This document shows, piece after piece, positions 13,102 to 42,467 of a stretch of DNA of 53,869 nt. The position numbers and the translations under genes are program-made. The notes beneath the pieces were generated by a model. It had not been told where the DNA came from. It was given only the letters and a program-made list of their open reading frames with translations, and ran no database searches. How positions within the stretch are numbered: the stretch's first letter is position 1; each line of letters begins with the position of its first letter. This stretch comes from Mesorhizobium sp. RMAD-H1 (GTDB lineage: Bacteria > Pseudomonadota > Alphaproteobacteria > Rhizobiales > Rhizobiaceae), in the NCBI RefSeq assembly GCF_014191375.1, contig NZ_JACHWN010000014.1, forward strand, positions 1-53,869, in the 5' to 3' direction.

Positions 13102-13116
13102 GAACAAAACAAGAAC
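13102..13116 (+). promoter_or_regulatory. LexA box of the radical SAM-UdgX operon
   Basis: GAAC-AAAACAA-GAAC, an exact match to the alphaproteobacterial SOS box (GAAC-N7-GAAC, equally GTTC-N7-GTTC). It ends 14 bases before the ATG of the radical SAM gene, a position where LexA would block transcription. Confidence 0.85.
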
Positions 13117-13130
13117 AATGGAGCCGATCC

Positions 13131-14360
13131 ATGCCCCTCAGCGTATTGCAGAAGTTGGAGATCCTGGCCGATGCTGCCAAATACGATGCGTCATGTGTTT
13201 CCTCCGGTGGGGAAAAACGGACGGCCGGAAAGGGCATAGGCTCGGTTACGGGTCAAGGCATCTGTCACGCCTTCACTCCAGACGGGCGCTGTGTCTCGCT
13301 GCTCAAAATCCTGCTCACGAACTTCTGTATCTACGACTGCGCGTATTGCGTGAGTCGTCGGTCAAGCAACGTGCGGCGTGCGCGTTTCAGCGTCGATGAA
13401 GTGGTCCGGCTCACACTTGACCTTTACCGCCGCAATTGCATTGAAGGCCTTTTCCTCTCCTCCGGGATAGTTCGGTCGGCCGACGAAACCACGGCCGATC
13501 TGGTGCGAGTAGCAAAAATCTTGCGGCTGGATCACGGATTCAGGGGCTATGTCCATCTGAAGATGATCCCCGGAACCTGTGCGGAGCTTCTGGACGAAGC
13601 TGGGCTTTATGCTGACCGGCTGTCAATGAATGTCGAAATGCCGGCGGAGGCAGCACTTGAACAATTGGCGCCAGAAAAGTCAGTGACGGAGATCAAGCGA
13701 GGCTTGGCGCGCACGCGCTCGCGCATCGAGGAGAGCGGTGAAGCGTCAAGCGCCGGCAGAGCGCATCCGCGGCGCTTTGCCCCCGCGGGGCAGAGCACGC
13801 AGATGGTCGTGGGCGCCGACTCATCCACCGATCTCGACATTCTGCGCTCGAGCGCCCAGCTTTACGCATCTTACGCGCTTGAGCGCGTCTACTATTCCGC
13901 CTTCAGCCCAACGGGCCACCCCTCGGCTGTGCTCTCGACGCGGCCGACTCCGCTCATCCGCGAGCACCGGCTTTATCAGACCGATTGGCTGATGCGCTTC
14001 TATGGTTTCTCGCTGCCGGAGATCGAAGAGGCGCTGACGGGCGGCATGCTTGATCTGTCGATCGATCCGAAGCTGGCCTGGGCGCTTGCCCATCGGGATC
14101 TCTTTCCAGTGGACATCAATCGAGCCAGTCGAGAACTGCTGCTGCGCGTGCCGGGGCTGGGCACGAAGGCGGTGGATCGCATAATCGCCGCGCGGCGGCA
14201 TGGCAACCTGCGACTTGCGGAACTGGCGCGGCTCGCCGGGTCCTTGAAGCGCGTGCGTCCCTTCGTGCTCGCGCCCGACTGGCAACCGGGCGCCATGCTT
14301 GATGACGATCGGCTGAGGCAGCGCCTTGTCCCGCCGCAGCAGCTTTCTTTGTCGCTGTGA
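13131..14360 (+). CDS. Putative DNA modification/repair radical SAM protein
   Basis: A 409-residue radical SAM protein of the class annotated as DNA repair or modification and genetically linked to uracil-DNA glycosylases (rSAM_link_UDG). The 4Fe-4S cluster ligands are Cys66, Cys70 and Cys73 (CxxxCxxC in NFCIYDCAYC). The C-terminal part (about 325-385) is a helix-hairpin-helix pair of the DNA-binding kind (PVDINRASRELLLRVPGLG). The start ATG at 13131 lies just after the LexA box. The next gene begins one base after this stop, so both are one transcript. Its substrate lesion is not known. Confidence 0.92.
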   Translation: MPLSVLQKLEILADAAKYDASCVSSGGEKRTAGKGIGSVTGQGICHAFTPDGRCVSLLKILLTNFCIYDCAYCVSRRSSNVRRARFSVDEVVRLTLDLYRRNCIEGLFLSSGIVRSADETTADLVRVAKILRLDHGFRGYVHLKMIPGTCAELLDEAGLYADRLSMNVEMPAEAALEQLAPEKSVTEIKRGLARTRSRIEESGEASSAGRAHPRRFAPAGQSTQMVVGADSSTDLDILRSSAQLYASYALERVYYSAFSPTGHPSAVLSTRPTPLIREHRLYQTDWLMRFYGFSLPEIEEALTGGMLDLSIDPKLAWALAHRDLFPVDINRASRELLLRVPGLGTKAVDRIIAARRHGNLRLAELARLAGSLKRVRPFVLAPDWQPGAMLDDDRLRQRLVPPQQLSLSL

Positions 14361-14361
14361 G

Positions 14362-15798
14362 ATGCTGTCGATCCCTCTTAAAGACGATTGCAGCGAGGAG
14401 GCGTTCCGTGCAGCAGCACGCCACTGCCTCGCAAAAGGCCTGGCGCCGGACCAGGTCGTCTTCAGCGCGGGCGACAGCTTGTCCCTCTTTGGCGAGGAAG
14501 CTCCGAACGTCTCGCCGGCCCCCGGCGTAGCGGTGCCGCGGAGCTATGCAAAGATGGTTACGGTGATCGTTTGCCACAGCGAGCCGGACCGTTTCGCGCT
14601 GCTCTATCGGCTCCTATGGCGCATTTGCCAGGGCGAACGTCACGTGCTCGACAACCCGGCAGACCCCGACGTTGCCAAGGCGATGCGCTATGCGAAGGCG
14701 GTGGAAAAGGACGTTTACCGCATGCAGGCCTATGTGCGTTTCGCCGAGCGTAAAATCGATGGCGCACAGGTCTTCGTTGCGTGGCACGAGCCCCGGCATC
14801 GCGTGCTTCGGTTGGTCGCGCCATTTTTCGTGGACCGGTTCAGCAATATGGATTGGCTGATCGCAACCCCACTCGGCACAGCAGCATGGCGGGGGGGCGT
14901 GCTTACCTTCGGCCCGCCGGCGGCTCGGCCTGCGAAAACAGCCGACGCAGTGCTCGATGAGCTTTGGATGACCTACTTTCGCTCCACTTTCAATCCGGCG
15001 CGGCTGCGCGTGAACGCCATGGTGGCGCAGATGCCGAAGCGGCATTGGTCGACCATGCCCGAAACGGCGCAGATTTCTGAAATGGTGCGGGAAGCCGGTG
15101 CACGCGTCGCGGAGATCGGCGCGCGCGTGGTCGAAAGGCCTCCGCGCTTCGCAGAGAGGGTCGCGGAGCGCATGGCGGATAATCAGAGGCGAGTATCGCA
15201 GCCTTTCTCACTGGATGCTCTACGTGATGAGATCCAAGCGTGCAGGCTATGTCCACTGCACGAGCCGGCGACTCAGGCCGTCCCTGGCGAGGGCATGCCC
15301 GGTGCCGAGATCATGTTCGTGGGCGAGCAGCCGGGTGATCAGGAGGACCTGACCGGCAAACCGTTCGTAGGACCGGCGGGAGTGATGTTCCAGCGGGCGC
15401 TCGCGGAAGCAGGTATCGAGCGGCAAAAGACATTCGTCACCAACGCCGTCAAGCACTTCAAATTTGAGCCGCGAGGCAAACGGCGGGTCCATATGACGCC
15501 GAGCACTGGAGAGGTGACAAAATGCCGTTTCTGGCTGAACCGAGAGATCGCCATCATCAAGCCGAAGCTCATCGTGGCACTGGGCGCCACCGCGATGCTG
15601 GGGATTACCGGCCGCAAAGTTCCCGTAACGAAAATTCGCGGGAGCGTGGTGGCGGCTGACGACCTGTCCATTCTCGTAACCGTGCATCCGTCCTATCTTC
15701 TGCGACTCCCCGACAAGGAACTCGCTTCGGCCGAATATACGCGTTTCGTCGATGATCTGCGACAGGCAAGAGTCTGGTGCGATGCACAAGTCAGATAG
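14362..15798 (+). CDS. DUF4130 - UdgX fusion: covalent uracil-DNA binding protein
   Basis: A 478-residue fusion. Residues 1-260 are DUF4130 (the small protein often encoded beside the radical SAM gene). Residues 285-478 are a UdgX-type uracil-DNA glycosylase: cluster cysteines Cys294 and Cys297 (CRLC), motif GEQPGDQEDL with GKPFVGPAG, the UdgX-specific KRRVH segment with His377, and HPSYLLR near 442-448. In Mycobacterium UdgX the KRRIH histidine becomes covalently joined to the abasic site after uracil removal, so the protein stays locked on the DNA. Ile is replaced by Val here; the histidine is kept. SOS control comes from the shared LexA box. Confidence 0.93.
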   Translation: MLSIPLKDDCSEEAFRAAARHCLAKGLAPDQVVFSAGDSLSLFGEEAPNVSPAPGVAVPRSYAKMVTVIVCHSEPDRFALLYRLLWRICQGERHVLDNPADPDVAKAMRYAKAVEKDVYRMQAYVRFAERKIDGAQVFVAWHEPRHRVLRLVAPFFVDRFSNMDWLIATPLGTAAWRGGVLTFGPPAARPAKTADAVLDELWMTYFRSTFNPARLRVNAMVAQMPKRHWSTMPETAQISEMVREAGARVAEIGARVVERPPRFAERVAERMADNQRRVSQPFSLDALRDEIQACRLCPLHEPATQAVPGEGMPGAEIMFVGEQPGDQEDLTGKPFVGPAGVMFQRALAEAGIERQKTFVTNAVKHFKFEPRGKRRVHMTPSTGEVTKCRFWLNREIAIIKPKLIVALGATAMLGITGRKVPVTKIRGSVVAADDLSILVTVHPSYLLRLPDKELASAEYTRFVDDLRQARVWCDAQVR

Positions 15799-15890
15799 GA
15801 GGCCAAGGTAAACTGCATGACCGGCGCGATGCGGATTGGCACATGATGCGCCAAGTCAAACCTCTTACGAGCCAAAACATTCCAAGTGGA

Positions 15891-15921
15891 GGCGGTCCAG
15901 GCAAATGCTGGACCGCCGTTT
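15891..15921 (+). terminator. Rho-independent terminator after the UdgX operon
   Basis: A perfect 10-base stem (GGCGGTCCAG / CTGGACCGCC) with loop GCAAATG, followed by GTTTT. It lies 93 bases past the UdgX stop and also separates that operon from the convergent DUF378 gene. Confidence 0.85.
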
Positions 15922-15928
15922 TCTCTGA

Positions 15929-16159
15929 TCACCGGACACCCCGCTGGGCAGCCGATTCTCCATCTGAGAAGCTTTGAACGAGCGGAATAAGCTGCCAGAC
16001 GGCTGAAAGCCCGACAAGGATATAGACGACCCGGGCAAGCGCAGACTGCTGCCCCCCAAAGATTGCTGCAACCAAGTCGAATTGAAAGAGCCCAACTAGT
16101 CCCCAATTGAGGCCGCCAATAATGACGAGAAGCAGGGTAATGATATTGAGCGCGCGCAT
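15929..16159 (-). CDS. DUF378 family small membrane protein
   Basis: A 76-residue membrane protein of the DUF378 family, function unknown. Seen: LNIITLLLVIIGGLNWGLVG, the hallmark GGLNWGLVG motif at residues 14-22, then a second helix ALARVVYILVGLSAVW (about 40-56). I chose the ATG at 16159, preceded by AAAGGACC. An EcfG-type promoter ends 36 bases upstream, so it probably belongs to the general stress regulon. Confidence 0.9.
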   Translation of the reverse strand: MRALNIITLLLVIIGGLNWGLVGLFQFDLVAAIFGGQQSALARVVYILVGLSAVWQLIPLVQSFSDGESAAQRGVR

Positions 16160-16194
16160 GGTTTGGTCCTTTCTCACAAGATATGCGTGCGCGT

Positions 16195-16219
16195 AACTGC
16201 TAATGATGTGAATTGTTCC
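16195..16219 (-). promoter_or_regulatory. EcfG-type promoter of the DUF378 gene
   Basis: Minus strand GGAAC (16219-16215), 17-base spacer, GTTA (from 16197 down), 36 bases before the ATG at 16159. Confidence 0.7.
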
Positions 16220-16296
16220 GCGCGGTCGTACGCGGCAGCATTTATCCATCCGCGCCGCGATGGGGACGGATTTCATTCGAAGAAACCGCCGCCGCC

Positions 16297-17928
16297 CTAA
16301 CCATCCAGTAGTGTTCTGACCTTTGCAGCAAGTTGCTCCAGCGAGGCGGGCTTTTGCAGCAGATTGACGCCAGGGTCGAGCAAACGATTGTGCACAACAG
16401 CATCCCGTGTATAGCCGGTCGTGAATAGGACTTTCAAGTCTGGCCGTCGCTCAAGCGCCGCCTCGGCAAGACGGAGGCCGTTAATATCCGGCATCACCAC
16501 ATCCGTAAAAAGGAGGCCGATTGCGGGTACAGCGGAGAGAGCACCCAGTGCCTCTTCTCCTCCTCGCGCCTCGACCACGCGGTAGCCGAGGTCGCGCAGC
16601 ATCTGGGCCGTAAGCGTCAACACCTGCTCGTCATCCTCCACGACCAGCACCGTTTCTGAGCCGTTCCCACGGACGGGGATTTGTGCTTCCGAATGGTTTC
16701 GCGCCTCGGGTGCACCGGAATATCGAGGCAGATAGATTGTTATGGACGTGCCTCGACCGAGCACGGAATTGACCGTTATGTGGCCTTCAGACTGCTTCAC
16801 GAAGCCGAAAACCTGGCTAAGTCCCAGCCCGGTGCCCCTTCCGGGTTCTTTGGTGGTGAAGAACGGATCGAACGCCTTGGCCATGACCTCAGGTGACATG
16901 CCGGCACCCGTGTCGGTGACGGCGACCATCACATATTGTCCCGGCTTTACGTCGTGCTCTGCGCCGTAGGCCTCGTCCAGGTGGGAATTGGCGGTCTCGA
17001 TCACCAGCCGGCCACCGTGAGGCATGGCGTCACGCGCGTTGATTGCCAAGTTGAGGACGACATTTTCCAGCACATTCTTGTCGGCCAAAACCTGCCAAAG
17101 GTCCTTAGCAAGCACCGTCTCCAGCCGAACCATCTCGCCCAGCGTGTGGTGCAGCAGGTCAGACATACCGGCTACCATCTGGTTGGCGCAAATGGGCTCG
17201 GGAGCGAGCGCCTGCTGGCGAGAGAACGCAAGCAAACGTTGGGTCAGCGCCGCTGCACGACCGGCTCCGTCCTTGGCCGCTGCGATGAAATAGGAAACAT
17301 CCTCGCCCTTCGCGAGACGACGTTCAAGAAGATTGAGCGCCGAAAAGACGACCGCAAGCATATTGTTGAAGTCATGGGCTATGCCACCTGTTAGCTGACC
17401 GACGGCTTCCATTTTCTGGGCCTGCCGCAACGCCGCTTCCGATTTCATCCGGGCCTCGACAGCCTCCGCGACGCGCTCCTCGAGCGTGCGGTTGAGGTCC
17501 TGAAGCTCGGCATTGGCCTTCTCGGCACAACGGCGGGCTTCAAGCAGTTCGCGTTCGTATCGACGTCGGTCGGACGCGTTGAAGATTGTGATGCGGACGA
17601 AGCTCAGCGCGCCCTTTTCATCGCGGCGTTCAACGGCATTGACGAGTACCGGAAGCTTACTGCCGTCGGCACGCACTAGATCGAGGGCCACCTCATGGAA
17701 AAAACCCTGCATGCGCATGAGGGGTGCGAAATGAGTTTCATAGTACATTTTTCCGGCGATGTTCAGGAAGTCCTGAAAGCGCCGCCCGATGAGGTCGGAT
17801 CGCGCGCAGCCGAGCCAATCGGCGAAGATGCGATTGGCCATTATGATATGTCCGCCTGGTCCCGTTGAGACATAGCCGCACGGAGCGTTGTCGAATAGAT
17901 CCTCAAGGTCCTCGATCAGCTGGTTCAT
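16297..17928 (-). CDS. PAS hybrid histidine kinase paired with an RsbQ-like hydrolase
   Basis: A 543-residue soluble hybrid kinase. Domains: PAS (about 5-125), coiled coil (128-165, rich in Glu and Arg), HisKA with His185 in GGIAHDFNNM, ATPase (about 290-410, with NLAINARDAM and GTGLGLSQVFGFV), and a C-terminal receiver (about 425-543) with phosphoacceptor Asp in LLFTDVVMPD. The ATG overlaps the stop of the upstream hydrolase gene (ATGA), so the two are translationally coupled. In Bacillus, RsbQ hydrolase makes a ligand for the PAS domain of the phosphatase RsbP; here the output would be a kinase. Confidence 0.92.
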   Translation of the reverse strand: MNQLIEDLEDLFDNAPCGYVSTGPGGHIIMANRIFADWLGCARSDLIGRRFQDFLNIAGKMYYETHFAPLMRMQGFFHEVALDLVRADGSKLPVLVNAVERRDEKGALSFVRITIFNASDRRRYERELLEARRCAEKANAELQDLNRTLEERVAEAVEARMKSEAALRQAQKMEAVGQLTGGIAHDFNNMLAVVFSALNLLERRLAKGEDVSYFIAAAKDGAGRAAALTQRLLAFSRQQALAPEPICANQMVAGMSDLLHHTLGEMVRLETVLAKDLWQVLADKNVLENVVLNLAINARDAMPHGGRLVIETANSHLDEAYGAEHDVKPGQYVMVAVTDTGAGMSPEVMAKAFDPFFTTKEPGRGTGLGLSQVFGFVKQSEGHITVNSVLGRGTSITIYLPRYSGAPEARNHSEAQIPVRGNGSETVLVVEDDEQVLTLTAQMLRDLGYRVVEARGGEEALGALSAVPAIGLLFTDVVMPDINGLRLAEAALERRPDLKVLFTTGYTRDAVVHNRLLDPGVNLLQKPASLEQLAAKVRTLLDG

Positions 17929-18749
17929 GGCCCTACATTCTGCGCGGTCGATCTCTCTCCTGCGAGAAAGATCTTCATCGCCAAGACTGTTTCGTCGGGC
18001 GCGCTGAGATTGGGGCAATGGCCAGTGGCGTTGAGGAGGACGAACGCGCTGTTGGAAACACGCTGGTGAACATAGGCGCCCACGGCCGGCGGGGCGATCA
18101 CATCCTCGTGACACTGCAGCACGAGGGCGCGGGCGGTAACGCGATCAAGGTCGGCGCGGTTGTCGGAAAGGAAGGTGACCCGGGCGAAGCGCTTGGCAAT
18201 TTCCGGGTCCGTCATGCAGAAAGAGTTGGCAAGCTCCTGGCCGAGTTCCGGCCGGTCGGGATTGCCCATGATCACAGGGGCCATTGCCTGCGACCATCCC
18301 ATATGATTGTCGTCGAGGAACTCGAGGAGTTCATAGACCTGCGCTTCGCTAAATCCACCGGTATAGTCGTCGTCGTCGATATAGCGAGGCGATGGGCCAA
18401 TCATGATGAGCTCGTCGAAGAGCTCAGGTCCCTGAATGGAAGCAATCGCTCCGATCATTGCGCTGACTGAATGGCCGACGAAAATGCTATGGGTAAGGTC
18501 AAGTTCGCGGCAGATCGCGACCACGTCGTCGGCATAGCCCTCGAGGGAGGCATACTTGCCGATATCGTAGGCTCTCAGATCGGAACCGCCGCAACCGACG
18601 TGGTCGAACAAGACAATGCGGTACTCTTCGGCAAAGGCAGGCCAGACAAAGCGCCACATGTTCTGATCGCAACCGAAGCCATGGGCGAAAACCATCGCCC
18701 TGCCCCCGGAACCCACTACCCTTACATTGTTTCGCCTCAATACATTCAA
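17925..18749 (-). CDS. RsbQ-like alpha/beta hydrolase
   Basis: A 274-residue alpha/beta hydrolase of the RsbQ/KAI2-like group. The catalytic triad is visible as Ser94 (GHSVSAMIG), Asp217 (CHEDVIAP) and His244 (ATGHCPNLS), within three residues of the positions in Bacillus RsbQ. The oxyanion region is FAHGFGCDQNMW. RsbQ processes an unknown small hydrophobic molecule and signals to a PAS domain. The downstream PAS kinase overlaps by four bases, preserving this partnership in a two-component setting. Start at ATG 18749 (MNVLRRNN); an in-frame extension upstream lacks family features. Confidence 0.92.
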   Translation of the reverse strand: MNVLRRNNVRVVGSGGRAMVFAHGFGCDQNMWRFVWPAFAEEYRIVLFDHVGCGGSDLRAYDIGKYASLEGYADDVVAICRELDLTHSIFVGHSVSAMIGAIASIQGPELFDELIMIGPSPRYIDDDDYTGGFSEAQVYELLEFLDDNHMGWSQAMAPVIMGNPDRPELGQELANSFCMTDPEIAKRFARVTFLSDNRADLDRVTARALVLQCHEDVIAPPAVGAYVHQRVSNSAFVLLNATGHCPNLSAPDETVLAMKIFLAGERSTAQNVGP

Positions 18750-19426
18750 AACGCAAACTCCGCTTCATGTGCTAGAGACCAGCTGCTGGAGATGGGTCTC
18801 ACTGGCGACAGATATAGGGAGAATGCACACGGCGTCGAATCGATGCCCCATCGCGTTAGCGTCGAGCTCGGTGGAAATGCGCATGCGAAGCGACAGGAAG
18901 GCATGGGCTGGCCTGCTTGCCCATGTAGTACCGATTGCAGTTGTAGATGAAGTCCTGCCGCATCGACGGGAGAATCCGCGCAGCGTCCACCGATACCCGG
19001 TTCTTTACAGGTCGAGGGCACTTCGTGAGAGCGACCGCCGGCGACCTATGAAGCAGCATGGGATTGATGGAAGCAGATTCAAGCGAACGCCAGCTGTGCC
19101 CAATCGACGCCTTTTGCATGATGCTGATCGTTCCCGCCAGGTAATCCTGTCCACGACCTTTGTCTATTACCCGCGGGAAATTGCCGCGCTCTGTGAATGG
19201 CGAACCCGCAGAGAACGCGACAGCCCCCTGCTCCGATAGCGGGCAAACTGGCCCCACTGTTTTCCTCCATATTGTGGCCATCGGACGTAGCCGACTGGGG
19301 CAGGTGCTTTGCTAAGCTCTCATTCATCGGTGTCGTTCGCACATCCCCTCAAGTCAGACATTCTTCGCCATCTGGCGCAACGCTTTGCCGATCCGCGAGT
19401 TAGATCTTCAGCAAACAGGTACACTC
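18750..19426. other. Intergenic stretch, nothing recognised
   Basis: About 680 bases between the divergent hydrolase and transporter genes. Overlapping frames on both strands show no family features or ribosome binding sites. No EcfG- or LexA-type site found by eye. Confidence 0.4.
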
Positions 19427-20590
19427 ATGCAAGAAGCAGAGCGCGACGAAGCGGCGGCGTTCCATGGACGTTCAATCGAGCCGCCGCAGGTCATTGTCGT
19501 TGATAGCAGCCTGAAGACGCTAGGAATCGGCACCTTCCTGATCATTCTGGTCGTGGCGCTGTATTTCGGGCGTGATTTCCTTTTGCCAGTCGTGCTTGCC
19601 TTCCTCCTCGCTCTCGTTCTCGGCCCCGTGGTTCGATCTCTCGCCCGGCGAGGTGCGCCTGAATGGGCTACCGCGATACTGCTCGTAGTTGTACTCTCTG
19701 CCGTCATCGCATCCGCTCTTTACTCCTTGAGCGGTCCGGTTTCCCGATGGATCGAGGACGCGCCGCGAATCGGCCGCGAAGTGCAGGACCGAATTGCGAT
19801 GCTGCGCCGCCCGGTTGATGCGGTGGTGGATGCGTCCAAGCAAGTCGAGCAACTCGCTGAATCCGAGGATCAAGAAACGCAGCGTGTCGTCCTAAGCGAG
19901 CCGGGCCTCATCAGCCGCGCTGCCAGCGGGGTGCCTGAGGTCGCCGCGCAGATCGGGGTCACTCTTATTCTTCTGCTTTTCCTGCTTTCCTCCGGGGACA
20001 TGTTCTATGAAAAACTCGTAAAATCTCTACCCACGCTCTCGGACAAGAAGCGTGGATTGCGAATTGCGCGGACGGTCGAGCGGGAGGTTTCGCGTTATCT
20101 TTTCACCATCTCGCTGATCAATGTCGGCCTTGGTGCCGCTATCGCGGCGGGCATGTTTGCGATCGACATGCCCAATCCCGTGCTCTGGGGCGTGCTAGCC
20201 GCGCTACTAAACTTCATCCCTTATCTCGGGGCCTTGCTCGGCATCGTGCTTGTCGGTCTGGTCTCGCTGGTCTCCTTCGATGCGATCGGAGCGGCACTGC
20301 TTGCGCCGCTCATCTATCTTGCCTGCACCACCCTCGAGGGACAGTTGGTCACACCGCTGGTCATCGGCCGCCGGCTTGAGATGAACCCTGTCGTGATCTT
20401 TCTTGCGATCGCATTCTGGGGTTGGCTATGGGGGATAGTCGGCGCGCTGATCGCTGTTCCGCTTCTTGTCATCCTCAAGGTGTTCGCGGATCATGTTGAG
20501 GGCCTCGGGGGGGTGGCAGAATTTCTGGCTGGGCGCGATGTGCCACAGCCGCAGGAAGACGAGGAAAGCGACCCACCCCAATCCTCCTAG
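19427..20590 (+). CDS. AI-2E family transporter
   Basis: A 387-residue inner-membrane protein of the AI-2E (PerM/TqsA) family. Two N-terminal helices (about 35-90), a soluble segment (about 110-170), then the family core with MFYEKLVKSLP, the helix pair around LINVGLGAAIAAGMF, NPVLWGVLAALLNFIPYLGALLG near 265-287 and the C-terminal pore region FWGWLWGIVGALIAVPLLVILK. Members export diverse small molecules or act as ion antiporters, and the name AI-2 exporter holds for few of them. I chose the ATG at 19427; a TTG at 19385 is possible. Substrate unknown. Confidence 0.9.
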   Translation: MQEAERDEAAAFHGRSIEPPQVIVVDSSLKTLGIGTFLIILVVALYFGRDFLLPVVLAFLLALVLGPVVRSLARRGAPEWATAILLVVVLSAVIASALYSLSGPVSRWIEDAPRIGREVQDRIAMLRRPVDAVVDASKQVEQLAESEDQETQRVVLSEPGLISRAASGVPEVAAQIGVTLILLLFLLSSGDMFYEKLVKSLPTLSDKKRGLRIARTVEREVSRYLFTISLINVGLGAAIAAGMFAIDMPNPVLWGVLAALLNFIPYLGALLGIVLVGLVSLVSFDAIGAALLAPLIYLACTTLEGQLVTPLVIGRRLEMNPVVIFLAIAFWGWLWGIVGALIAVPLLVILKVFADHVEGLGGVAEFLAGRDVPQPQEDEESDPPQSS

Positions 20591-20639
20591 GTTCCCGCGG
20601 CCAGCGGTGCTATGCTTGCGATCCGCTTAATCCAAATCG

Positions 20640-21735
20640 CCCTTCGAAAGGGTTCCCGAGAAAAATCAAATTCATTCTCGTTGCTTGCGGATGCCTGCTC
20701 ATCGTCCTGACGTTGCTGTCGTTCGTGAAAAGTGCGAAACGGTGGATTCGCGCAGCGGATTCTCCGCGCCTTCAGATCGCTGGCGCGATTGCGGTTTTGA
20801 TAGGCGCCTACCTGTTCTTCCATGGAGCGGAGGGCACATGGGACGCCATTTTCCTGATCACACTCGCAGGCGCGCTCGGATGGCAGTGTTTCCGAAGATT
20901 TCCTTACACGATCATGGCGCCTCGGGAGGTTCTGAAGGCCGCTGGCACTGGAGACCCCGCAAACTCGATCCGCCTGTTGATCGCAAATGTTTTGATGGAG
21001 AACCGGGACGCCGACAGATTCCTGGCTCTTGTGCAGGCAACTCGACCAGATATCATCCTGGCTGTGGAGACTGATGCCTAGTGGGATAAGCGTTTGTGGG
21101 ACTTGGACCGCGACTGTCCGCACTCGATCAGGCAACCGCAAGAAAATCACTACGGCATGCACCTCTTTTCCAAGCTAGAAATGGCATCGCCCGAGGTGCG
21201 CTTTCTAGTGGAAGAGGACTTGCCCTCCGTCCGCGCTTCCGTGCGCTTGCGATCCGGACAGTGGATCGCATTCTTCGGCGTGCACCCGCGACCGCCGGAG
21301 CGGCGAACCGACACAGAGGAGCGGACGCCGAAATCCTGATCGTCGGCAGACAAGTAAAGGCGCAGAACCAACCAGCAATCGATGCGGGCGATCTCGATGA
21401 TGTCGCGTGGTCACATACGACTCGTCTTTTCCAGCGCATCAGTGGCACTCTGGATCCGACGCGGGCGCGGCATGTTCAGGACCTTCCAGGCCCGATATCC
21501 GCTGTTTAGATGGCCTCTTGATCATATTTTCCACCATGCCCCTTACACGCTGGTCCACCTGTAGCGCCTGCGCGACATCGGCTCAGACCACTTGCCGGTC
21601 CTGGCAGAGCTGAATCACAGACCTAGCGCGGTGGGGGGCAGGAAGCACTGGACCCCGACCAGCGCGACCAAGCGGAAGCTCAAGAAGAGATCGCCGAGGG
21701 CAAATCTGCAGACTAGGCGATTTGCGGCTTTTGAA
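20640..21735 (+). pseudogene. Endonuclease/exonuclease/phosphatase family gene, broken
   Basis: Three frames together give one protein of about 350 residues. N-terminal membrane helices (LLIVLTLLSFVKSAKRW, AGAIAVLIGAYLFF) are followed by the catalytic start (RLLIANVLMENRDADRF, RPDIILAVETDA), which ends at TAG 21079-21081. The same frame resumes with WDKRLWDLDRD to GVHPRPPE, shifts to DAEILIVGRQV and AGDLDDVAWS, then shifts to RWPLDHIFHH and, past another stop, RDIGSDHLPVLAEL. Active-site pieces (GDLDDV, SDHLPV) remain. One or two stops and two frameshifts make it a pseudogene. Confidence 0.85.
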
Positions 21736-21756
21736 CAGTAGCGGCCAGAATGCACC

Positions 21757-21781
21757 GGAACCAAAGGGCTCACCGGCCGTT
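21757..21781 (+). promoter_or_regulatory. EcfG-type promoter of the GH13 enzyme
   Basis: GGAAC at 21757-21761, 17-base spacer, GTTT from 21779. It lies 60 bases before the ATG at 21842. Confidence 0.7.
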
Positions 21782-21841
21782 TGAATACGCCCTTTCCGGC
21801 GAGGGTTCTCCGACATCATGTCGGCGCCACGGAGGTATTCC

Positions 21842-24389: not shown

Positions 24390-24421
24390 TCTACGGTGGC
24401 TACTCGACTGAAATCGAACCG

Positions 24422-31930: not shown

Positions 31931-32036
31931 CCTCCTCCGGCGCGCGCAGTTGTGCGGTAATTTGCAGTAGTGTCCTTCCCCCTCAACACCCCAGCGCAGT
32001 CAAATTCAGAACCGCTATTGGTGATCCATGACGTCA

Positions 32037-33206: not shown

Positions 33207-33227
33207 GAGCCGTCTCCTTGTCAGCGT

Positions 33228-33611: not shown

Positions 33612-33642
33612 CTATCCAACTCCGTTTTGCTTCCTGCCTCCG

Positions 33643-33667
33643 AACCCCCACCTGGAGCGGAAGTTCC
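33643..33667 (-). promoter_or_regulatory. EcfG-type promoter of the SPW-dehydrogenase operon
   Basis: Minus strand GGAAC (33667-33663), 17-base spacer, GTT (33645-33643). Confidence 0.75.
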
Positions 33668-34067
33668 GAGGGACGGCAACCTTAGAGAGATCGGGACCCG
33701 CCCCTTTTGTATGGCAATTGCGATTGTGGCCCGAGCGGCTGCTATGCTGACGCTCGGCGTAGCCAAGCGCTTGGCGTTCACGCTTACGGCTCGCAAGCCA
33801 CATGATGAAAGGACGGTACCCTCAATCGCAAACGGGCCCTACGCCACCGGGTGTTGCACCCTCCCCGCAAGGTCGTGATCACAAGCGCCAGCACAGCACG
33901 GCGTGCGACGTAATTCCCACATTCTGGCCAGCCCCAATCTGCTTGCGTTTCAGAGTCAGCCCGTCTGCCCACAGGATAGACGATTGACGCGGTGGAGCTC
34001 GCCGCAAGGTAGAGGTTGCCGCTTTGTATCTTCGTGTTGAGCAGACAATGCCTTGTCCGTCCGAGAT
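33668..34067. other. Intergenic stretch, nothing recognised
   Basis: About 400 bases between dnaE2's end and the SPW promoter. Short overlapping frames only; no clear terminator. Confidence 0.4.
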
Positions 34068-37000
34068 CTATCGGAAATCCCGCGTCTTCGTCTTGATGCT
34101 GTCAATATGCCGGTATGGATCGACAAGATTTCTGGCCTTGGGCAGGTCGCGCGGATCGGATCCGGGAGAACCACGATGGAATTCGTCTCCGCGTCCATGC
34201 GGCAGCGGAAACCCGGCCTGGCGCGAGGCAATGCTGGCCAGTTCGCCAGAAAAATCGGTGAGTTCGTGGGCAACGATGTGCACAACGTCGCCCTCGCGCT
34301 GCACCCTGCCTTTCACCCCAAGCATGCTCGCGCCCAGCACGACGCGCCGGAACTTTTCGAAGACCTTGGACCAGACCACCAGATTGGCGATCGCTGTTTC
34401 ATCTTCCAGCGTGATGAACATGACGCCTTTGGCGCTGCCCGGGCGCTGACGCACGAGCACGAGGCCGGCGACGTGAACGAAACGTCTGTCGGGGGATGCG
34501 ACAGCCTCGGCACAGGTCATGATGCGCCGGCGGGCCAGGTCTGAGCGGAGAAAGGAGACCGGGTGCTGCCGCAGGGTCAGACAGGTGTGGCTGTAGTCCT
34601 CTACCACCTCCCTCCCGGCCGTCATCGGTCGCAAGGACACGTTGGGCTCCACCTGCTCTGGCACCACGGAGATTTCCCGCGCGGCCGCGGCGGCAAAGAG
34701 CGGTAGCGGTTCGTCGCGAAGCGCCTTGATGTCCCAGAGCGCCTCGCGCCGCGCAAGCGCGAGAGCCGGGCGGAAGGCATCGGCTTCGGCCAGCTCGACC
34801 AGGGCAGAGGCCGGAATAGAGGCCCGGCGCCAAAGATCGTCCACCGAGGTGAAGGGCCGATCTGCCCGGCAGGAGATCAGGCGCGCCGCCTCGGCATTGC
34901 CGAGGCCTTTGACCAAGCGCAGGCCGAGCCGGACGGCGAACTGCCCATCCTCGCCGGTTGGCTCCAGTGTGCAGTCCCAACGCGAGGCATTGATGCAGAT
35001 CGGCCGGATCTCGACATCGTGCTCGCGCGCGTCGCGCACGATCTGCGCCGGCGCATAGAAGCCCATGGGCTGAGCGTTGAGGAGCGCGCAGCAGAAAACC
35101 TCTGGATGCCAGCATTTCATCCAGGCCGAGGCATAGGCAATAAGGGCAAAGCTCGCGGCATGGCTTTCCGGGAAGCCATAGGAGCCGAAACCTTCGAGTT
35201 GCCTGAATGTGCGTTCGGCGAAGTCGCGGTCATAACCATTGGCCACCATGCCCTCGATCAGCTTCGTACCGAATTTCGAGACGCCGCCGGTGTGCTTGAA
35301 GGTCGCCATGGCGCGGCGCAGCTGATCGGCCTCGCCGGCGGTAAATCCAGCGCATTCGATGGCAACCCGCATGGCCTGCTCCTGAAACAGCGGCACACCC
35401 AAAGTCTTCCCGAGCACCGCCTCAAGCTCGGGCTTTGGAAAGGTCACCTCCTCCTTGCCTTCACGCCGGCGCAGATAGGGATGGACCATATCGCCCTGAA
35501 TTGGCCCAGGGCGCACGATCGCCACTTCGATTACAAGATCGTAGAAGGTCCGCGGCTTGATGCGCGGCAGCATAGCCATCTGGGCGCGGCTCTCGATCTG
35601 GAAAGTGCCAAGCGTATCGGCCCGGCGGATCATCGCATAGGTGCGTGGGTCCTCGGCCGGGATGGTGGCGAGATCGAGCCTGATATCCTTATGCTCGGCT
35701 AAAAGATCGAAGGCGCGGCGCATGCAGGAAAGCATCCCGAGGCCCAGCACATCGATCTTCATGAACTTCAGGACATCGATGTCGTCCTTGTCCCACTCGA
35801 TGACCTGGCGGTCTTCCATGGCGGCCGGCTCGATGGGCACCAGTTCATCGAGCCGGTCGCGCGTCAGCACGAAGCCGCCGGGGTGCTGCGAGAGATGGCG
35901 AGGGGTGCCAACGAGTTGATGTGCGAGCTCGAGCGTAAGCCGAAGCCGACGGTCGTCCATATTGAGGTTGAGGCCCTCGGCATGCTTTTGTTCGATGCCT
36001 TCGGACCACCCCCAGACCTGCGACGACAGGGTCTTGGTCAGATCCTCGGGAAGGCCGAGAGCCTTGCCTATGTCACGCAACGCACCCTTGGCCCGGTAGC
36101 GGATGACGGTCGAACAGAGCGCGGCACGCTCACGGCCATAGGTCTGATAGACCCACTGAATGACCTCCTCGCGCCGCTCATGCTCGAAATCGACGTCGAT
36201 GTCGGGCGGCTCGCGCCGTTCCTCGGAGACAAAGCGCTCGAATAGCAGGTCGTTGCGGTCGGGATCGACCGAGGTGACACCGAGCACGAAGCAGACGGCC
36301 GAGTTAGCCGCTGATCCCCTACCCTGGCATAGAATGCCCTTGGAGCGCGCGAAGCGAACGATTGCATTTACCGTGAGGAAGTATGGCGCATAATCGAGCT
36401 TCTCGATTAACGCCAGCTCGTGACGGAGATTGGCGCGAACCTTGTCCGGCAGGCCCTCGGGATAGCGCTCGGCCGCCCCCTCCCAGGTGAGCTTCTCGAG
36501 AGCCTGTTGCGGCGTCAGTTCGGGATAGAGCTTTTCTTCCGGATATTGATAGGCGAGCTCATCGAGGCGGAAGGTGCAGCGCTCCATGATCTCGACCGTG
36601 CGGGCCAATGCTTCCGGATAGCGGGAAAACAGCCGGTGCATTTCCTCCGGAGGCTTCAGATAGCGATCGGCAAAGCGCTCACGCCGATGGCCAAGTTCGT
36701 CTATCGTGACATTGTGCCGGATCGCGGTGACTACGTCCTGCATCATTTGCCGGGCCGGTTCATGGAACAGGACGTCGTTGGTGACGACGCTTGCCACCCG
36801 GGCGGCGGCCGCCATGTTCGACAGCTCCAGGAGCCGGAGCTGGTCGTTGGGCCGGCGGCGCAGGGTGAGTGCCATATAGGCGCGGTCGCCGAACGTTTCC
36901 CGCAAGCGCCGTAGCTGCAGTGCACAGATATCGTCAGCGGCATCGGGGACGAGAATGGCGAGAAGACCCTCGCCGTAGGCAACGACATCGCCCCATTCGA

Positions 37001-37325
37001 GATGGCACTTGCCCTTGCCGGCGCGCCTCTTGCCGAGCGAGAGCAGCCGGCAGAGCCGCGCATAGGCGGCGCGGTCTGTTGGATAGACCAGAACCGACAT
37101 GCCGTCGGCAAGATCGAGACGGCAGCCGACCACGAGGCGGATTCCGGTCGTCCTGGCCGCCTCATTGGCCCTGACGATACCGGCGAGAGAATTGCGGTCG
37201 ACGATGCCCAGCGCCTCGATGCCCATCAGGGAGGCCTGCGCGAATAGCTCCTCGCAACTGCTCGCACCCCGCAGGAATGAGAAGTGGCTCGTCACCTGCA
37301 GTTCGGCATAGCGCGGCCCGTTCAT
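34068..37325 (-). CDS. dnaE2: Error-prone DNA polymerase DnaE2
   Basis: A 1085-residue C-family polymerase, the catalytic subunit of the SOS mutasome. Order: PHP domain (about 5-200), polymerase palm with the catalytic aspartates Asp377 and Asp379 in [13 protein letters not shown] and a third in [10 protein letters not shown], fingers ([20 protein letters not shown]), tandem helix-hairpin-helix ([13 protein letters not shown]) and an OB fold ([19 protein letters not shown]). Length is normal. The start ATG overlaps the imuB stop by four bases. It works with ImuA and ImuB in mutagenic translesion synthesis, so imuA-imuB-dnaE2 are one LexA-controlled transcript. Confidence 0.97.
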
Positions 37326-38845
37326 CCGAATATCCCGTGCAGAAACCATTGCTGCGAGCCGCTTTCGGTATGCTCTCCGTCGCCGGAGCGAAACAGCCAA
37401 TAGCGCTCGCCGGTCTCATCTTCGACCCGGAAGTAATCGCGGACTGTCGTCATCTCGGCGTCACGCTTCCACCATTCGCCGCGGATGCGCTCGGGGCCGT
37501 CGGCGCGACGGACGCGCCGGCGCACGCCGCGCCAGGTGAACCAGACGGGTGGGTTGTCGGGCAGCAGCGCCATGGTCTCGATGGGTTCGGGCCGGGCGAG
37601 CAGCCGCGGCGGGCGTGGCCAGTCACCCTCCCAGGTGGCACCGGTCTCCTGTGCCAATGCCGGAACACGCGCCACCGACCGTTCCGGCACGTCGCTTTGG
37701 AGCGGTGCGAAGCGGCAGAGCCGGTTCTCGCCGACGCGGTTGGCCAGTACATCGATCAGGTCGGAGACATCCGGCTGCGATGCCTCGACCAGCGAGGAAA
37801 TCGTCTGCCTGTCCCTGAGCGGTTCGGACTGAACGGCGACGAGTAGCATGATCTCGATCCCGAATCCGGGATCGATCGTTTCGATCTTGTCGCAAAGGAG
37901 CCGGGTAAGCCTTTTGGGATCGCGGACCGGCCGGGCAGTTCCGACCCGGATCACCTGCAGCGTATTGTCGACCCGATGGCACAGGAGATCGAGCCGGCGT
38001 GCGCCGAGGCCTCGCATTTCGAGTTCCGCGCAAAGGGCCTCGACCAATCGGGCCGCGTAACGGGCGATGGTTTCGGCGGCGCCGATCGGTTCGCCGAAGA
38101 CGCGGCGAACCTCGACCAGTTCGGGCGAGCGGACCGGGTCGATCGGTTCGGCAAGAATACCGGTCGCCTGATCGAGGCGCCGGCCGATCTCCGGACCGAA
38201 ACGCAACGCCAGGGGTGCGCGGGGTTGATCCATCAGGTCCCCGATCGTTTCGAAACCGAGCGTGCGCAGACCGGCAATGGTATCGGGGGCGAGCCGGAGC
38301 GCGGCCAGCGGCAGGGGTTTGAGCATCAACATGGTTTCCCCCGGCGGTACGACCAGCGTCTGCCGGCCGAGGAAGCGGGCCGCTGCATGGGCGGCGCCCC
38401 AAGTGTCTGCGATCGCCGCTCGCACCTCGATACCGGAGGCCGAGAAGCGCTGGACGATGGCGGCGAGCATCGTGGCCTCGCCGCCATACAGATGATCAGC
38501 GCCCGTCGTGTCCATCACGAGCCCGTCCGGGGCATCGGCCATCACAACGGGCGAGACGCGCTGCAGTGCCCAGAGCGCCAGTTTATCGAGACCCGCCGCG
38601 TCAGCTGCCGGATCGGCGTCCATGACGACGAGACCGGGGATGAGCGCCTGAGCCTTGGTGACGATCATGCCCGGGCTGACGCCGAGGGCTTGCGCCTTTT
38701 CATCGAGAGTTGTGACAACTCTGCGCCGGCCGATGCGGCCGGCCAGGACGAGCGGCGCCTCAGACGGAGGCGATCCGCCGCCCGACTTCCTTTTGAGGCG
38801 GTCGATGGGCCACCTTGGCAGGAAGAGCGATACGACCCTTTGCAT
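37322..38845 (-). CDS. imuB: ImuB, Y-family polymerase-like mutasome protein
   Basis: A 507-residue Y-family-like protein that lacks the catalytic acidic residues of active polymerases and links DnaE2 to the beta clamp. Seen: start [17 protein letters not shown] (the usual ImuB opening, which decided the start at 38845), palm-like segment [16 protein letters not shown], helix-hairpin-helix-like segment [19 protein letters not shown], and C-terminal [14 protein letters not shown] with the family-typical end WFLHGIFG. Its start lies inside the end of imuA and its stop overlaps dnaE2. Confidence 0.95.
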
Positions 38846-39521
38846 CGCAGGCCTCCACTTCGAAATCTGCACTTTCTCCGGCCCTGGCCCGGATCAACTC
38901 GACAAGCCAGCGGGCGCGACCAACGCCGGGTACCGGCAATGGGGTGGACGGGAGGGCCGAGACGCGCCAGCGTGTGACGCTGGCCGTGGGCTGCCCGAAA
39001 TCGCCCGCTTCGCTCTGGCGGCGCCAGCGGCGCAGGGCGATACCGATCGTGTCAGTACCCTCCGCCGCAAGCTGCAGCCGGCGCGATGCCGTCATTGACA
39101 AGCGCGCGGTCTCGGCCACCACGGCGCCAGGGCCGCCGTGGCGCAGTCCTTCCTCGAAACAGGCAAGCAGTGCCTTTTCATCGCCTGCCTCGACATGGAT
39201 GAGGCGGTCCGGCGCGAGGCCCACCTGGGCAAGCGCAGGCGCAAAGAGATCGGCACAGGTCACGATCCAGAGTATCTTCCCTTGCGTTCGGGCGGCGATC
39301 CCCGCGGCAAAGAGCGCCGCTGCTGCACCATCCACCGCGCCGTTGCCGCCTCCTGCGACCTCGTGCAGAGCTCCAAGCGCCAGCCCTCCTCCCCGAAGCC
39401 TGCGGTCGATCTCAGCCACGCCAAACGGCAGGACGCTTTTGGCACGCCGGGCACCACTTTCAAGGTGCGCGATGCGCTCCTGAAGCTCAGCGATAACTGA
39501 ATTTGCCGCGCGATCGGGCAT
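38760..39521 (-). CDS. imuA: ImuA, RecA-like mutasome protein
   Basis: A 253-residue RecA-fold protein, first gene of the mutasome operon. Seen: a short N-terminal coiled region (AELQERIAHLES), the ATPase-like core beginning LPFGVAEIDRRLRGGGLALG, and the conserved alphaproteobacterial C-terminal part (WRVSALPSTP, then RWLVELIRARAGESADFEVE). The loop after GALHEVAGG replaces a classic Walker A. The ATG at 39521 lies 50 bases from the LexA box. It overlaps imuB by about 86 bases. Confidence 0.95.
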   Translation of the reverse strand: MPDRAANSVIAELQERIAHLESGARRAKSVLPFGVAEIDRRLRGGGLALGALHEVAGGGNGAVDGAAAALFAAGIAARTQGKILWIVTCADLFAPALAQVGLAPDRLIHVEAGDEKALLACFEEGLRHGGPGAVVAETARLSMTASRRLQLAAEGTDTIGIALRRWRRQSEAGDFGQPTASVTRWRVSALPSTPLPVPGVGRARWLVELIRARAGESADFEVEACDAKGRIALPAKVAHRPPQKEVGRRIASV

Positions 39522-39571
39522 TGGGAATCCAGGTTTTCCGAGGGCTATGCAACGCGCCTATGCGCTGTTAT

Positions 39572-39586
39572 GTTCCTTATTTGTTC
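39572..39586. promoter_or_regulatory. LexA box between imuA and the helicase gene
   Basis: GTTC-CTTATTT-GTTC, an exact alphaproteobacterial SOS box. It stands 50 bases from the imuA start and about 126 bases from the helicase start, so it certainly suits the mutasome and may also control the divergent helicase-SRAP-dinB' transcript. Confidence 0.88.
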
Positions 39587-39712
39587 CGTTTCCGGTAATG
39601 AGTCAATCGGGAAGAGGCGAGAGTCTTCTGGAGGCGGATGAGGCGGTAGCGCAAGAATGCCACGGGATCGGGCGATTATTGTTGTTTTGCAGACGCATAG
39701 GAGCGGGACGGA

Positions 39713-41782
39713 ATGAAAGGGGCGCATCTGGAAAAATTAAACGAGGGGCAACGGGCCGCGGTCGTCCACGGCATCGGCTTTCCTGGTGGCCAGATCGGCG
39801 GCCCGCTGCTGATCATCGCGGGCGCCGGGTCCGGCAAGACCAATACGCTCGCCCACCGTGTCGCGCAGCTCATCATTTCCGGCGCCGATCCACGGCGCAT
39901 GTTGTTGATGACCTTTTCCCGGCGCGCCGCCTCGGAAATGGGCAAACGGGTGGAGCGGATCTGTGCAAAGGTACTCGGTGACAAGGCCGGCATCCTGACG
40001 GACGCGCTCGCCTGGTCGGGCACATTCCATGGGATCGGTGCGCGCGTTCTGCGCGAATACGCAATTGAGCTGGGTCTCGATCCGCAATTTACGATCCATG
40101 ATCGCGAGGACTCGGCCGACCTCATGAACCTCATTCGGCACGATCTCGGCTTCTCCAAAATGGAAAGCCGGTTTCCGTCCAAGGGAACGTGCATTTCCAT
40201 CTATTCCCGCACAGTCAATGCCCAGGCGCCGCTGGAGGAAATCCTGCGCGCCCACTTTCCCTGGTGTGCCGCTTGGCAAAACGAGCTGCGCACGCTTTTC
40301 GCATCTTACGTTGAGGCCAAGCAAATCCAGAATGTGCTCGATTACGACGATCTGCTGCTTTACTGGGCCCAGACGATGGGCGATGCGACAATGGCGGAGG
40401 AGATTGGCGGCCGCTGGGACCACGTTCTGGTCGACGAATACCAGGATACGAACCGTCTGCAGGCGACGATCCTGACCGGATTGAAGCCCGATGGTCGGGG
40501 CCTGACCGTGGTTGGCGACGACGCGCAGGCAATCTATTCCTTCCGGGCGGCGACGGTCCGCAACATCCTGGACTTCCCGCAGACATTTTCGCCGGCGGCC
40601 GATATCATCACGCTCGATCGCAACTATCGCTCCACCCAGCCGATCCTTGCCGCCGCCAATGGCGTGATTGGTCTTGCCCGCAACCGTTTCACCAAGAACC
40701 TGTGGACCGACCGGGCCTCGAACGAGCGCCCGCGCCTCATCACTGTGCGCGACGAGGCCGAGCAGGCCAGGTTCGTCGCCGACGAGGTGCTGGAGAACCG
40801 CGAGACCGGCATGCGGCTCAAGGATCAGGCCGTGTTGTTCCGGGCGAGCCACCATAGTGGTCCGCTCGAAGTGGAACTCACCCGCCGCAACATTCCCTTC
40901 GTCAAATTCGGCGGGCTCAAATTCCTCGACAGTGCCCATGTGAAGGATATGCTGGCCGCGCTGCGTTTTGCGCAGAATATGCGCGACCGTGTTGCCGGCT
41001 TTCGCCTGATGCAGTTGCTGCCAGGCGTCGGGCCGGCCACGGCCCAAACCGCGCTTGATGCCGTTGCCGAGAGTGCCGAGCCGATTGACACGCTCGAACG
41101 CCTCCCCTGCCCTGCCCGCGCGGCGGCCGACTGGCCGGGGTTCGTCGCGCTTGTCGCGGGACTGCGTAGCGGCTCCTCTGGATGGCCGGCGGAGATCGGA
41201 CAGGTGCGGGCATGGTACGAACCCTATCTGGAACGGATTCATGAGGATTTCGAGATGCGCCGGGCCGATCTGCTCCAGCTCGAGGACATCGCCGCCAGTT
41301 ACCCCTCCCGCGAGCGTTTCCTCACCGAGCTGACGCTCGATCCGCCGGATGCGACCTCGGGCCAGGCGGGTGTGCCGCTGCTCGATGAAGACTATCTGAT
41401 CCTGTCGACCATCCATTCGGCAAAGGGGCAGGAATGGCGCTCGGTCTTCGTGCTCAACACAGTGGACGGGTGTATTCCATCTGATCTCGGCGTCGGCACA
41501 TCGGACGATATAGAGGAGGAACGGCGCCTGCTTTATGTCGCCATGACCCGGGCCAAGGACAGCCTCGACCTCATCGTGCCTCAGCGCTTCTTCACCCATG
41601 GCCAGTCTTCGACCGGCGATCGGCATGTCTACGCCTCGCGGACGCGGTTTATTCCGGCTAGTCTGCTGAAGCTGTTTGAATGCCGCGCCTGGCCCGTTGT
41701 TTCACCGGGAGCGGCACCCAATATCGGACCACGACAGGTTCGCCTCGATGTCGGCGCCAAGATGCGCGGCATGTGGCGGTAA
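39713..41782 (+). CDS. UvrD/Rep-type superfamily 1 DNA helicase
   Basis: A 689-residue SF1A helicase. Motif I (AGAGSGKT, residues 36-43), Ia (MLLMTFSRRAASEM), motif II (VDEYQDTN, about 241), motif III (VGDDAQAIYSF), motif IV (LDRNYRST), motif V (STIHSAKGQEW) and motif VI (ERRLLYVAMTRAK) are all present. It should unwind DNA 3' to 5'. The protein differs from the housekeeping UvrD in its shorter length and C-terminus. The start follows AGGAGCGGG. The SRAP gene starts 13 bases after the stop. Position next to the LexA box suggests SOS induction. Confidence 0.93.
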   Translation: MKGAHLEKLNEGQRAAVVHGIGFPGGQIGGPLLIIAGAGSGKTNTLAHRVAQLIISGADPRRMLLMTFSRRAASEMGKRVERICAKVLGDKAGILTDALAWSGTFHGIGARVLREYAIELGLDPQFTIHDREDSADLMNLIRHDLGFSKMESRFPSKGTCISIYSRTVNAQAPLEEILRAHFPWCAAWQNELRTLFASYVEAKQIQNVLDYDDLLLYWAQTMGDATMAEEIGGRWDHVLVDEYQDTNRLQATILTGLKPDGRGLTVVGDDAQAIYSFRAATVRNILDFPQTFSPAADIITLDRNYRSTQPILAAANGVIGLARNRFTKNLWTDRASNERPRLITVRDEAEQARFVADEVLENRETGMRLKDQAVLFRASHHSGPLEVELTRRNIPFVKFGGLKFLDSAHVKDMLAALRFAQNMRDRVAGFRLMQLLPGVGPATAQTALDAVAESAEPIDTLERLPCPARAAADWPGFVALVAGLRSGSSGWPAEIGQVRAWYEPYLERIHEDFEMRRADLLQLEDIAASYPSRERFLTELTLDPPDATSGQAGVPLLDEDYLILSTIHSAKGQEWRSVFVLNTVDGCIPSDLGVGTSDDIEEERRLLYVAMTRAKDSLDLIVPQRFFTHGQSSTGDRHVYASRTRFIPASLLKLFECRAWPVVSPGAAPNIGPRQVRLDVGAKMRGMWR

Positions 41783-41795
41783 AAGGAAGTCGAGA

Positions 41796-42467
41796 ATGTG
41801 CAATCTTTACAATCTCACGACGACGCGCGATGCGGTGATCGAGTTCACCAAGGCATTCACCGACAAGGCCGGCTGGAACAAGCCGTCCCTCGACGTCTAC
41901 CCCAATACGCTGGCGCCGATTGTCCGGGTCGGCGCGGACGGCAAGCGCGAAATCGTCAGCGCAACGTGGGGCATGCCCACGCCTCCGGCCTTTATCAAAG
42001 GCAACTATGACCCCGGCGTTACGAACATTAGAAACGTCAATTCGCCTCACTGGCGGCGCTGGCTCGGCCCGACGAGCCGGTGTGTCGTGCCGGTCACGTC
42101 ATTTGCGGAGCCCGATCCGGCCAGCAAGGTTCCGGACGGACGCGTTCCGAATGTCTGGTTTGCGCGCAACGCCGACCGGCCACTCATGTTGTTTGCCGGG
42201 TTCTGGACACCGTGGAAGGGTGTCAGAAAAGTCCGCGATGGAGAACGCGAGTTTGAACTCTACGGTTTCCTGACCACTTCACCGAACGAGATCGTCAGTC
42301 CGATCCATCAAAAGGCGATGCCGGCGATCCTGACCACGCCCGAAGAGGTCGATCTTTGGCTGACTGGTGATTGGGATGAGGTTAAACACCTCCAGCGGCC
42401 GCTTCCCGGAAACATGCTCGTCGTGGTCGAGCCCCCGGTCGAGCGCGGAGAAAATCTCCTGCTGTAA
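41796..42467 (+). CDS. SRAP (HMCES/YedK-like) abasic-site binding protein
   Basis: A 223-residue SRAP domain protein. After removal of Met1 the catalytic Cys2 (MCNLYN) forms a thiazolidine cross-link with abasic sites in single-stranded DNA, shielding them from mutagenic bypass or breakage. Other family residues are visible: Asn77 in TNIRN, Glu105 in SFAEPD and His171 in SPIHQKAMP. It lies in one operon with the helicase and a truncated dinB, facing the mutasome. In E. coli YedK loss alters survival of abasic-site damage. Confidence 0.94.

Follow-up and report, generated by a model that had tools for sequence, protein, structure and literature searches.

The window analysed here is a whole contig of Mesorhizobium sp. 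RMAD-H1 (G000:C14, 53,869 bases). It carries two groups of genes, each beside a LexA-type direct repeat: an operon for a radical SAM protein and a DUF4130-UdgX fusion (unit A), and a mutasome cassette, imuA-imuB-dnaE2, facing a helicase-SRAP operon (unit B). The control of the two units, and whether they belong together, are the subject of this analysis.

In unit A, the repeat GAACAAAACAAGAAC (13102-13116, + strand) ends 14 bases 5' of the radical SAM gene (13131..14360, +), whose product, which has an HhH motif, scores 536 bits against TIGR03916 (rSAM_link_UDG; cut-off 343.5). The ATG of the second gene (14362..15798, +) lies one base past the radical SAM stop codon; the encoded DUF4130-UdgX fusion matches TIGR03915 and TIGR03914, both over cut-off (304.8 bits for TIGR03914, curated cut-off 189.95). 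Its UdgX part aligns to the solved UdgX (PDB 6ail, 6iod) at an expect value (E) of 2.5e-49 through the segments GEQPG, TNAVKHF, GKRRVH and HPSYLLR, the window loop GKRRVH falling on KRRIH of the solved protein. The UdgX signature, motif A (GEQPG) with loop residues R107 and H109, is present, and motif B, HPSYLLR, has Y at the S/A position of HPS(S/A)(L/V)(L/V)R. Among 119 UdgX entries, in which some genomes appear more than once, GEQP is found in 119 and KRRxH in 98; the remaining 21 have changes at loop position 1, 2 or both and keep R-x-H. Mycobacterium smegmatis UdgX, which bonds covalently to the sugar as uracil leaves (PMC10359453), has GEQPG, KRR[IV]H, R107 and H109 in common with the window protein. 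The latter differs in being fused behind DUF4130, in sharing an operon with a radical SAM gene behind a LexA-type box, and in the Y of motif B, where that paper gives S or A.

The fold model of DUF4130 is good (predicted local distance difference test, pLDDT, 85). No sequence relative was found in the PDB for DUF4130 at E below 0.07, nor for the radical SAM protein at 0.01, and the best Foldseek candidates for DUF4130, DHH/RecJ-type proteins (E of about 0.003, template-modelling score below 0.35 among the matches listed), were set aside as unconvincing. A second UdgX-family match over cut-off lies elsewhere in the same genome (G000:C5:68947-69534), away from its only TIGR03916-family radical SAM match.

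In unit B, the repeat GAACAAATAAGGAAC (39572-39586, - strand) lies between the divergent imuA and helicase genes, at distances of 50 base pairs (bp) and 126 bp, respectively. To its left run genes for an ImuA-like protein (38760..39521, -), an ImuB-type Y-family protein (37322..38872, -; IMS and DUF6504) and a DnaE2 error-prone polymerase of the type common on plasmids (34068..37343, -, start codon provisional; NF004225 1411 bits, cut-off 939). They form the three-gene mutasome cassette with DnaE2 over cut-off; the ImuA-like protein scores 72.3 bits against NF033429, under the curated cut-off of 150, as does the other ImuA-like protein of the genome (42.4 bits). To the right run, 13 bp apart, genes for a UvrD/PcrA-like helicase (39713..41782, +) and for a SRAP-domain protein of a divergent subfamily with an N-terminal Met-Cys (41796..42467, +; PF02586 79.6 bits, cut-off 27.1). 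A dinB remnant follows (42499..42705, +), a gene start cut short, of which 42508-42684 aligns to residues 8-62 of a 375-residue relative; many relatives have a longer dinB 3' of SRAP, and in a few the match there is likewise partial.

A search of solved structures with the SRAP protein returned 2aeg as its only match. Residues C2, N81, E111 and H168 (first-row numbering) are invariant in 14 aligned rows, which include the genome's other SRAP; that protein matches YedK chains and is about 25% identical to the window SRAP. Escherichia coli YedK and human HMCES, for which PMC9436759 describes covalent chemistry on abasic DNA through the N-terminal cysteine, share with the window SRAP this Cys and the order of the conserved Asn, Glu and His; the correspondence of individual residues to those of YedK rests on order and motif. 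An earlier note on this DNA had given the coordinates of both boxes and the gene layout, which proved correct on re-examination; it had also named a capture histidine in KRRVH and Cys2 of SRAP, and both residues are present, the histidine conserved in the alignment with solved UdgX and the cysteine unchanged in all 14 rows. From residues kept in sequence and chemistries published for relatives, we infer that window UdgX and SRAP may each crosslink DNA themselves.

LexA-type boxes in the genome and in relatives

Both units have the motif GTTCN7GTTC/GAACN7GAAC near a gene start. Within the window the bare form GAACN7GAAC occurs 4 times against 1.67 expected by shuffling, which is not significant and therefore makes it weak evidence there; the two further matches, at 19202 and at 19459, appear to be chance occurrences. 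Genome-wide, the bare form has 136 matches and its reversed control 69; for the strict form GAACAWN5GAAC the counts are 26 and 1, and both window boxes are among the 26. Neighbours of the strict sites include recA, lexA, ssb, uvrA, an intact dinB, a second imuA-like gene and a comM-like gene. Part of the 26 fall within reading frames or near unrelated genes in this genome-wide scan, so not all of them need be functional. Promoter scans found no promoter-like site at either window box, and one terminator-like site lies near GAACAAAACAAGAAC. The same genome also has a second imuA-imuB-dnaE2 cassette with a box of its own (L113, L039 and L196; G000:C4:142004-147564).

We then compared unit A across genomes. 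A radical SAM match over cut-off was found in 67 of the 151 sampled genomes of the window's own family, and in 81 of 119 genomes of a second family of the class; the best plasmid match, in Novosphingobium at 76%, suggests that this second family is Sphingomonadaceae. A box lay no more than 80 bp upstream of the radical SAM gene in everything examined, 90 genomes and 5 plasmid records; counted as distinct genomes, these are 41/41 from the own family, 42/42 from the second family and 7/7 others of the class. By batch, the reading gave 30/30 for the best own-family loci, 10/10 at class level, and 30/30 and 10/10 in the second family. Further entries gave 18/19, the one miss beginning inside the gene, with its box in the neighbouring piece. 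The box stood on the same strand as the radical SAM gene in all 30 best own-family loci (strand was not required in the later batch), and two of the 30 have a spacer rich in guanine and cytosine. About 0.0011 chance boxes are expected per 85-bp stretch and strand, or about 0.002 per locus on either strand. Boxed radical SAM-DUF4130 operons with no UdgX beside them were also seen (L309, L310, L312, L397), and none of the genomes G312, G325 and G446 contains a UdgX match over cut-off. On an Azospirillum plasmid (L402, 11249-12391) a TnpB-family gene stands between radical SAM and UdgX. Caulobacter vibrioides, used as a control genome, has matches both to TIGR03916 and to TIGR03914.

For unit B, the SRAP protein as query gave 150 confirmed stretches in genome contigs, of which the best 80 were read; by title they are mostly Rhizobiales, with one cyanobacterial name and several metagenome bins, some being cut by contig ends and some genomes contributing several. 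Among these 80 loci, a box lay within 600 bp of the operon start in 54, a divergent imuA was present in 42, the helicase gene stood directly upstream of SRAP in 37, and a dinB match, in part of the cases partial, stood directly downstream in 58. Besides, window-type SRAP genes that lack this helicase occur at L177-L190, L197 and L200. Many of them are preceded, at a distance of some hundreds of bases, by a LexA-type box, and wherever the interval was inspected another gene separates the box from SRAP.

The conservation of both boxes in relatives strongly supports shared SOS control of the two units, as predicted from these sites. The earlier note had proposed such shared LexA control of the two loci, and this part stands as a prediction, backed also by the genome-wide enrichment; the predicted control is regulon-wide, a membership held with many other genes, and no private arrangement of the two units.

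The window segment itself was probably acquired, perhaps on a plasmid, because the branch of its radical SAM protein is deviant, the gene is absent from same-genus genomes and unit B has plasmid relatives. In a quick tree of 38 other own-family rows, the window radical SAM protein stands apart from 37, on a long branch. The program flagged this branch as unsafe and marked the window (L049) and L402 as a possible false joining. Both same-genus genomes in the sample lack radical SAM. Plasmid records matching the window DnaE2 number 711. In Nitratireductor rhodophyticola, the annotation of one plasmid shows dnaE2, a Y-family protein, a 'damage-inducible protein' in the position of imuA, SRAP and dinB.

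The UdgX operon and the mutasome

In the second family we read 42 of the 81 positives over 20 kilobases (kb): the 30 best-scoring, 10 picked and 2 from the class sample. In 16 of these 42 loci unit A is embedded between imuB and dnaE2. The genes there share a strand and follow one another as imuA, imuB, radical SAM, (DUF4130), UdgX, dnaE2, with boxes before imuA and before radical SAM and with gaps of 106-3351 bp between imuB and radical SAM and of 107-761 bp between UdgX and dnaE2. The joint layout of the window is repeated on plasmid p_IV of Paracoccus aminovorans, where a stretch of 19 kb holds SRAP, a box, imuA-imuB-dnaE2 and a radical SAM-DUF4130-UdgX operon with a box of its own, unit A being 10 kb from the SRAP-box-imuABC cluster; the p_IV imuA, imuB and dnaE2 are 69, 61 and 72% identical to the window type.

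Within the own family, linked pairs were matched by eye among the dnaE2 matches listed, and the count is a lower bound: a listed dnaE2 lies no more than 25 kb from radical SAM in at least 4 of 67 genomes (the window, G094, G048 and G141, of which G048 and G141 belong to one genus). Among the positive genomes with no listed dnaE2, none was seen near radical SAM in G059, G113 and G067, read to about 20 kb in both directions, or in G116, read to 15 kb. DnaE2 over cut-off is present in 67/67 own-family genomes with radical SAM and in 69/84 without it (p = 0.0001, a statistic that ignores phylogeny); the DnaE2-negative set comprises 15 genomes, and G066, judged over cut-off from its E-value, was counted as positive. 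Window-type SRAP, defined as a match at E <= 1e-20, some of them partial, accompanies radical SAM in 39/67 genomes against 23/84 genomes that lack it (odds ratio 3.56, adjusted for genome size, p = 0.0005, again ignoring phylogeny). Presence of any SRAP was useless as a signal, because 145 of the 151 genomes have one; the genome of the window itself holds further SRAP-like genes.

As a partner of the UdgX operon, the ImuA-ImuB-DnaE2 mutasome has better support than SRAP, and a link between UdgX and the mutasome is plausible. A specific partnership of UdgX with SRAP is weakly supported, by the odds ratio, which carries no correction for phylogeny, and by two joint loci, the window and p_IV. Of the survey of UdgX, SRAP and imuAB-dnaE2 that the earlier note had called for, the co-occurrence of the UdgX operon with the mutasome was borne out (16/42 embedded loci, DnaE2 in 67/67), while the joint 29-kb stretch it had described is rare and no conserved unit in the own family (linkage in at least 4/67 genomes, the window included). 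Its picture of a coordinated set for uracil and abasic lesions is partly supported, plausibly for the mutasome and weakly for the UdgX-SRAP pair.

Proposed working and rival readings

We propose that units A and B are transcribed separately, as SOS members of one LexA regulon, on a probably acquired segment, and we consider it probable that they work broadly as follows. Unit A would comprise radical SAM, DUF4130 and UdgX; unit B would comprise a plasmid-type mutasome whose control region is common to the divergent helicase-SRAP-(dinB) operon, dinB now being a stub. Upon DNA damage LexA, presumed to bind both boxes, would leave them and the genes would be induced. ImuA, ImuB and DnaE2 would copy past lesions, and SRAP would attach itself by its N-terminal cysteine to abasic sites of single-stranded DNA at the stalled site. 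UdgX would take out uracil and its loop histidine would bond to the sugar just bared, so that no free abasic site is left, and the radical SAM protein and DUF4130 may act in some step on the same lesions or products. Unit A would, in this working, serve the mutasome. Boxes at all copies examined, with embedding in the mutasome cluster of one family, would set UdgX in the context of error-prone bypass during SOS, and would bear too on why bacteria make DNA-bonding proteins at the moment when mutagenic copying is turned on.

A further reading, which we hold less likely than not, is that the UdgX operon was built into the mutasome cluster in one lineage and elsewhere, the window included, shares an acquired segment with it, SRAP being a second covalent cap. 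Several results weigh against the proposed working of the two units. The own-family linkage is rare: 0.7-1.5 linked genomes are expected by chance (Poisson 0.007-0.06 for four, 0.04-0.19 for three), and we discarded physical linkage there as a proof of function, at least 4/67 being not far from chance. The 16 embedded loci all fall in one 27-row radical SAM subclade (support 85) with 11 loci that lack the layout, so that a single origin with later losses is possible. The imuB-radical SAM gap of 106-3351 bp may hold other genes, and at L308, the one embedded locus with frames listed, other open frames do lie there, for which reason we regard the layout as a cluster rather than one operon. Three genomes keep the box, radical SAM and DUF4130 with no UdgX over cut-off, so UdgX is not indispensable to its operon. 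The DnaE2 association falls to p = 0.03 above 3 megabases. Finally, on four unit-A plasmids (Phaeobacter, Leisingera, Paracoccus denitrificans and Azospirillum) no mutasome or SRAP was found among the annotated genes within 10-12 kb, the gene table for these loci being incomplete.

One rival reading is plain co-membership, under which independent members of the SOS regulon that deal with different lesions met by chance on an acquired segment and have no functional coupling. The rare own-family linkage and the four plasmid loci fit it, as does the position of the window radical SAM protein, whose long, unsafe branch and absence from same-genus genomes point to a probably separate acquisition; the 16 second-family loci, of 42, with unit A inside the imuAB-dnaE2 cluster and the return of the joint layout on a plasmid of another family, p_IV, speak against it. 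We regard co-membership as a serious contender, short of an even chance. The full model of the earlier note, a dedicated pair of covalent traps with UdgX acting on uracil and SRAP on abasic sites, is unlikely. The two joint loci (the window and L403, that is p_IV) and the odds ratio for window-type SRAP argue for it; but UdgX bonds the sugar as uracil leaves (PMC10359453) and would therefore hand no free abasic site to SRAP, no window-type SRAP match was present in the 20 kb read at the 16 embedded loci, 28 of the 67 own-family radical SAM genomes lack window-type SRAP, and the association takes no account of phylogeny. That one or both boxes are chance matches, the units then escaping LexA control, is very improbable: the count of the bare motif in the window, not significant alone, would allow it, but the excess of the strict form over its control (26 to 1) and the conservation of the boxes at the same place in relatives run against it.

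Relation to described systems and further observations

COG4277 we take to be the radical-SAM/HhH protein. LexA-type control of an operon of a uracil-DNA glycosylase (UDG) and COG4277 (COG1573-COG4277) is described for Bacteroidetes in PMC8565304, which cites earlier reports that a system of this kind is under SOS control in Verrucomicrobia and Alphaproteobacteria, and which lists SRAP and imuA-imuB-dnaE2 among predicted regulon members. As in unit A, a LexA-type box precedes a two-gene operon with a UDG-superfamily protein; the available text makes no mention of UdgX, covalent capture, DUF4130 or a placement inside a mutasome cluster. SRAP beside ImuA/ImuB/DnaE2, DinB and a superfamily-I helicase in an SOS context, much as in unit B, was reported in 2013 (PMC3765255), and the legend of Figure 1 there places DUF4130 with SplB-like radical SAM proteins and uracil DNA glycosylases. 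In that paper the function proposed for SRAP is autoproteolysis and the helicase is RecD-related, whereas the window helicase is UvrD/PcrA-like; the text available holds no statement of a UdgX operon between imuB and dnaE2. The main text of PMC12926913, on DnaE2 modules, as far as available, names no radical SAM, uracil or UdgX.

A literature search, with most subscription papers outside it, found LexA named in none of 32 papers that mention UdgX, and likewise neither a UdgX operon inside a mutasome cluster nor the joint layout of Paracoccus. The two UdgX papers searched for SOS made no mention of it in their available parts. Two papers name UdgX together with SRAP, HMCES or YedK, one of them in its reference list only. 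The suggestion of the earlier note that the arrangement may not have been described is partly right: the joint layout was not found in the papers searched, and a LexA-controlled UDG operon and SRAP beside the mutasome are known from the available text of PMC8565304 and PMC3765255. The observation is sound and made of mostly known parts; what is provisionally new is that the UdgX operon repeatedly stands in physical association with the mutasome, largely outside the window.

Some other features were noted besides. Beyond the dinB remnant, the coding sequence of a SorC/DeoR-type regulator (42716-43656) is divided between the overlapping frames 43656-43108 and 43162-42716, each of which matches one part of the sugar-binding domain. 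LexA-type boxes also lie near genes for a 2'-5' RNA ligase/LigT-like protein, a family-2 glycosyltransferase and a HhH-GPD glycosylase (L012, L015, L046). At L038 (1501-1515) a strong box, GAACAAAATAAGAAC, has only short open frames nearby and may mark a small SOS gene.

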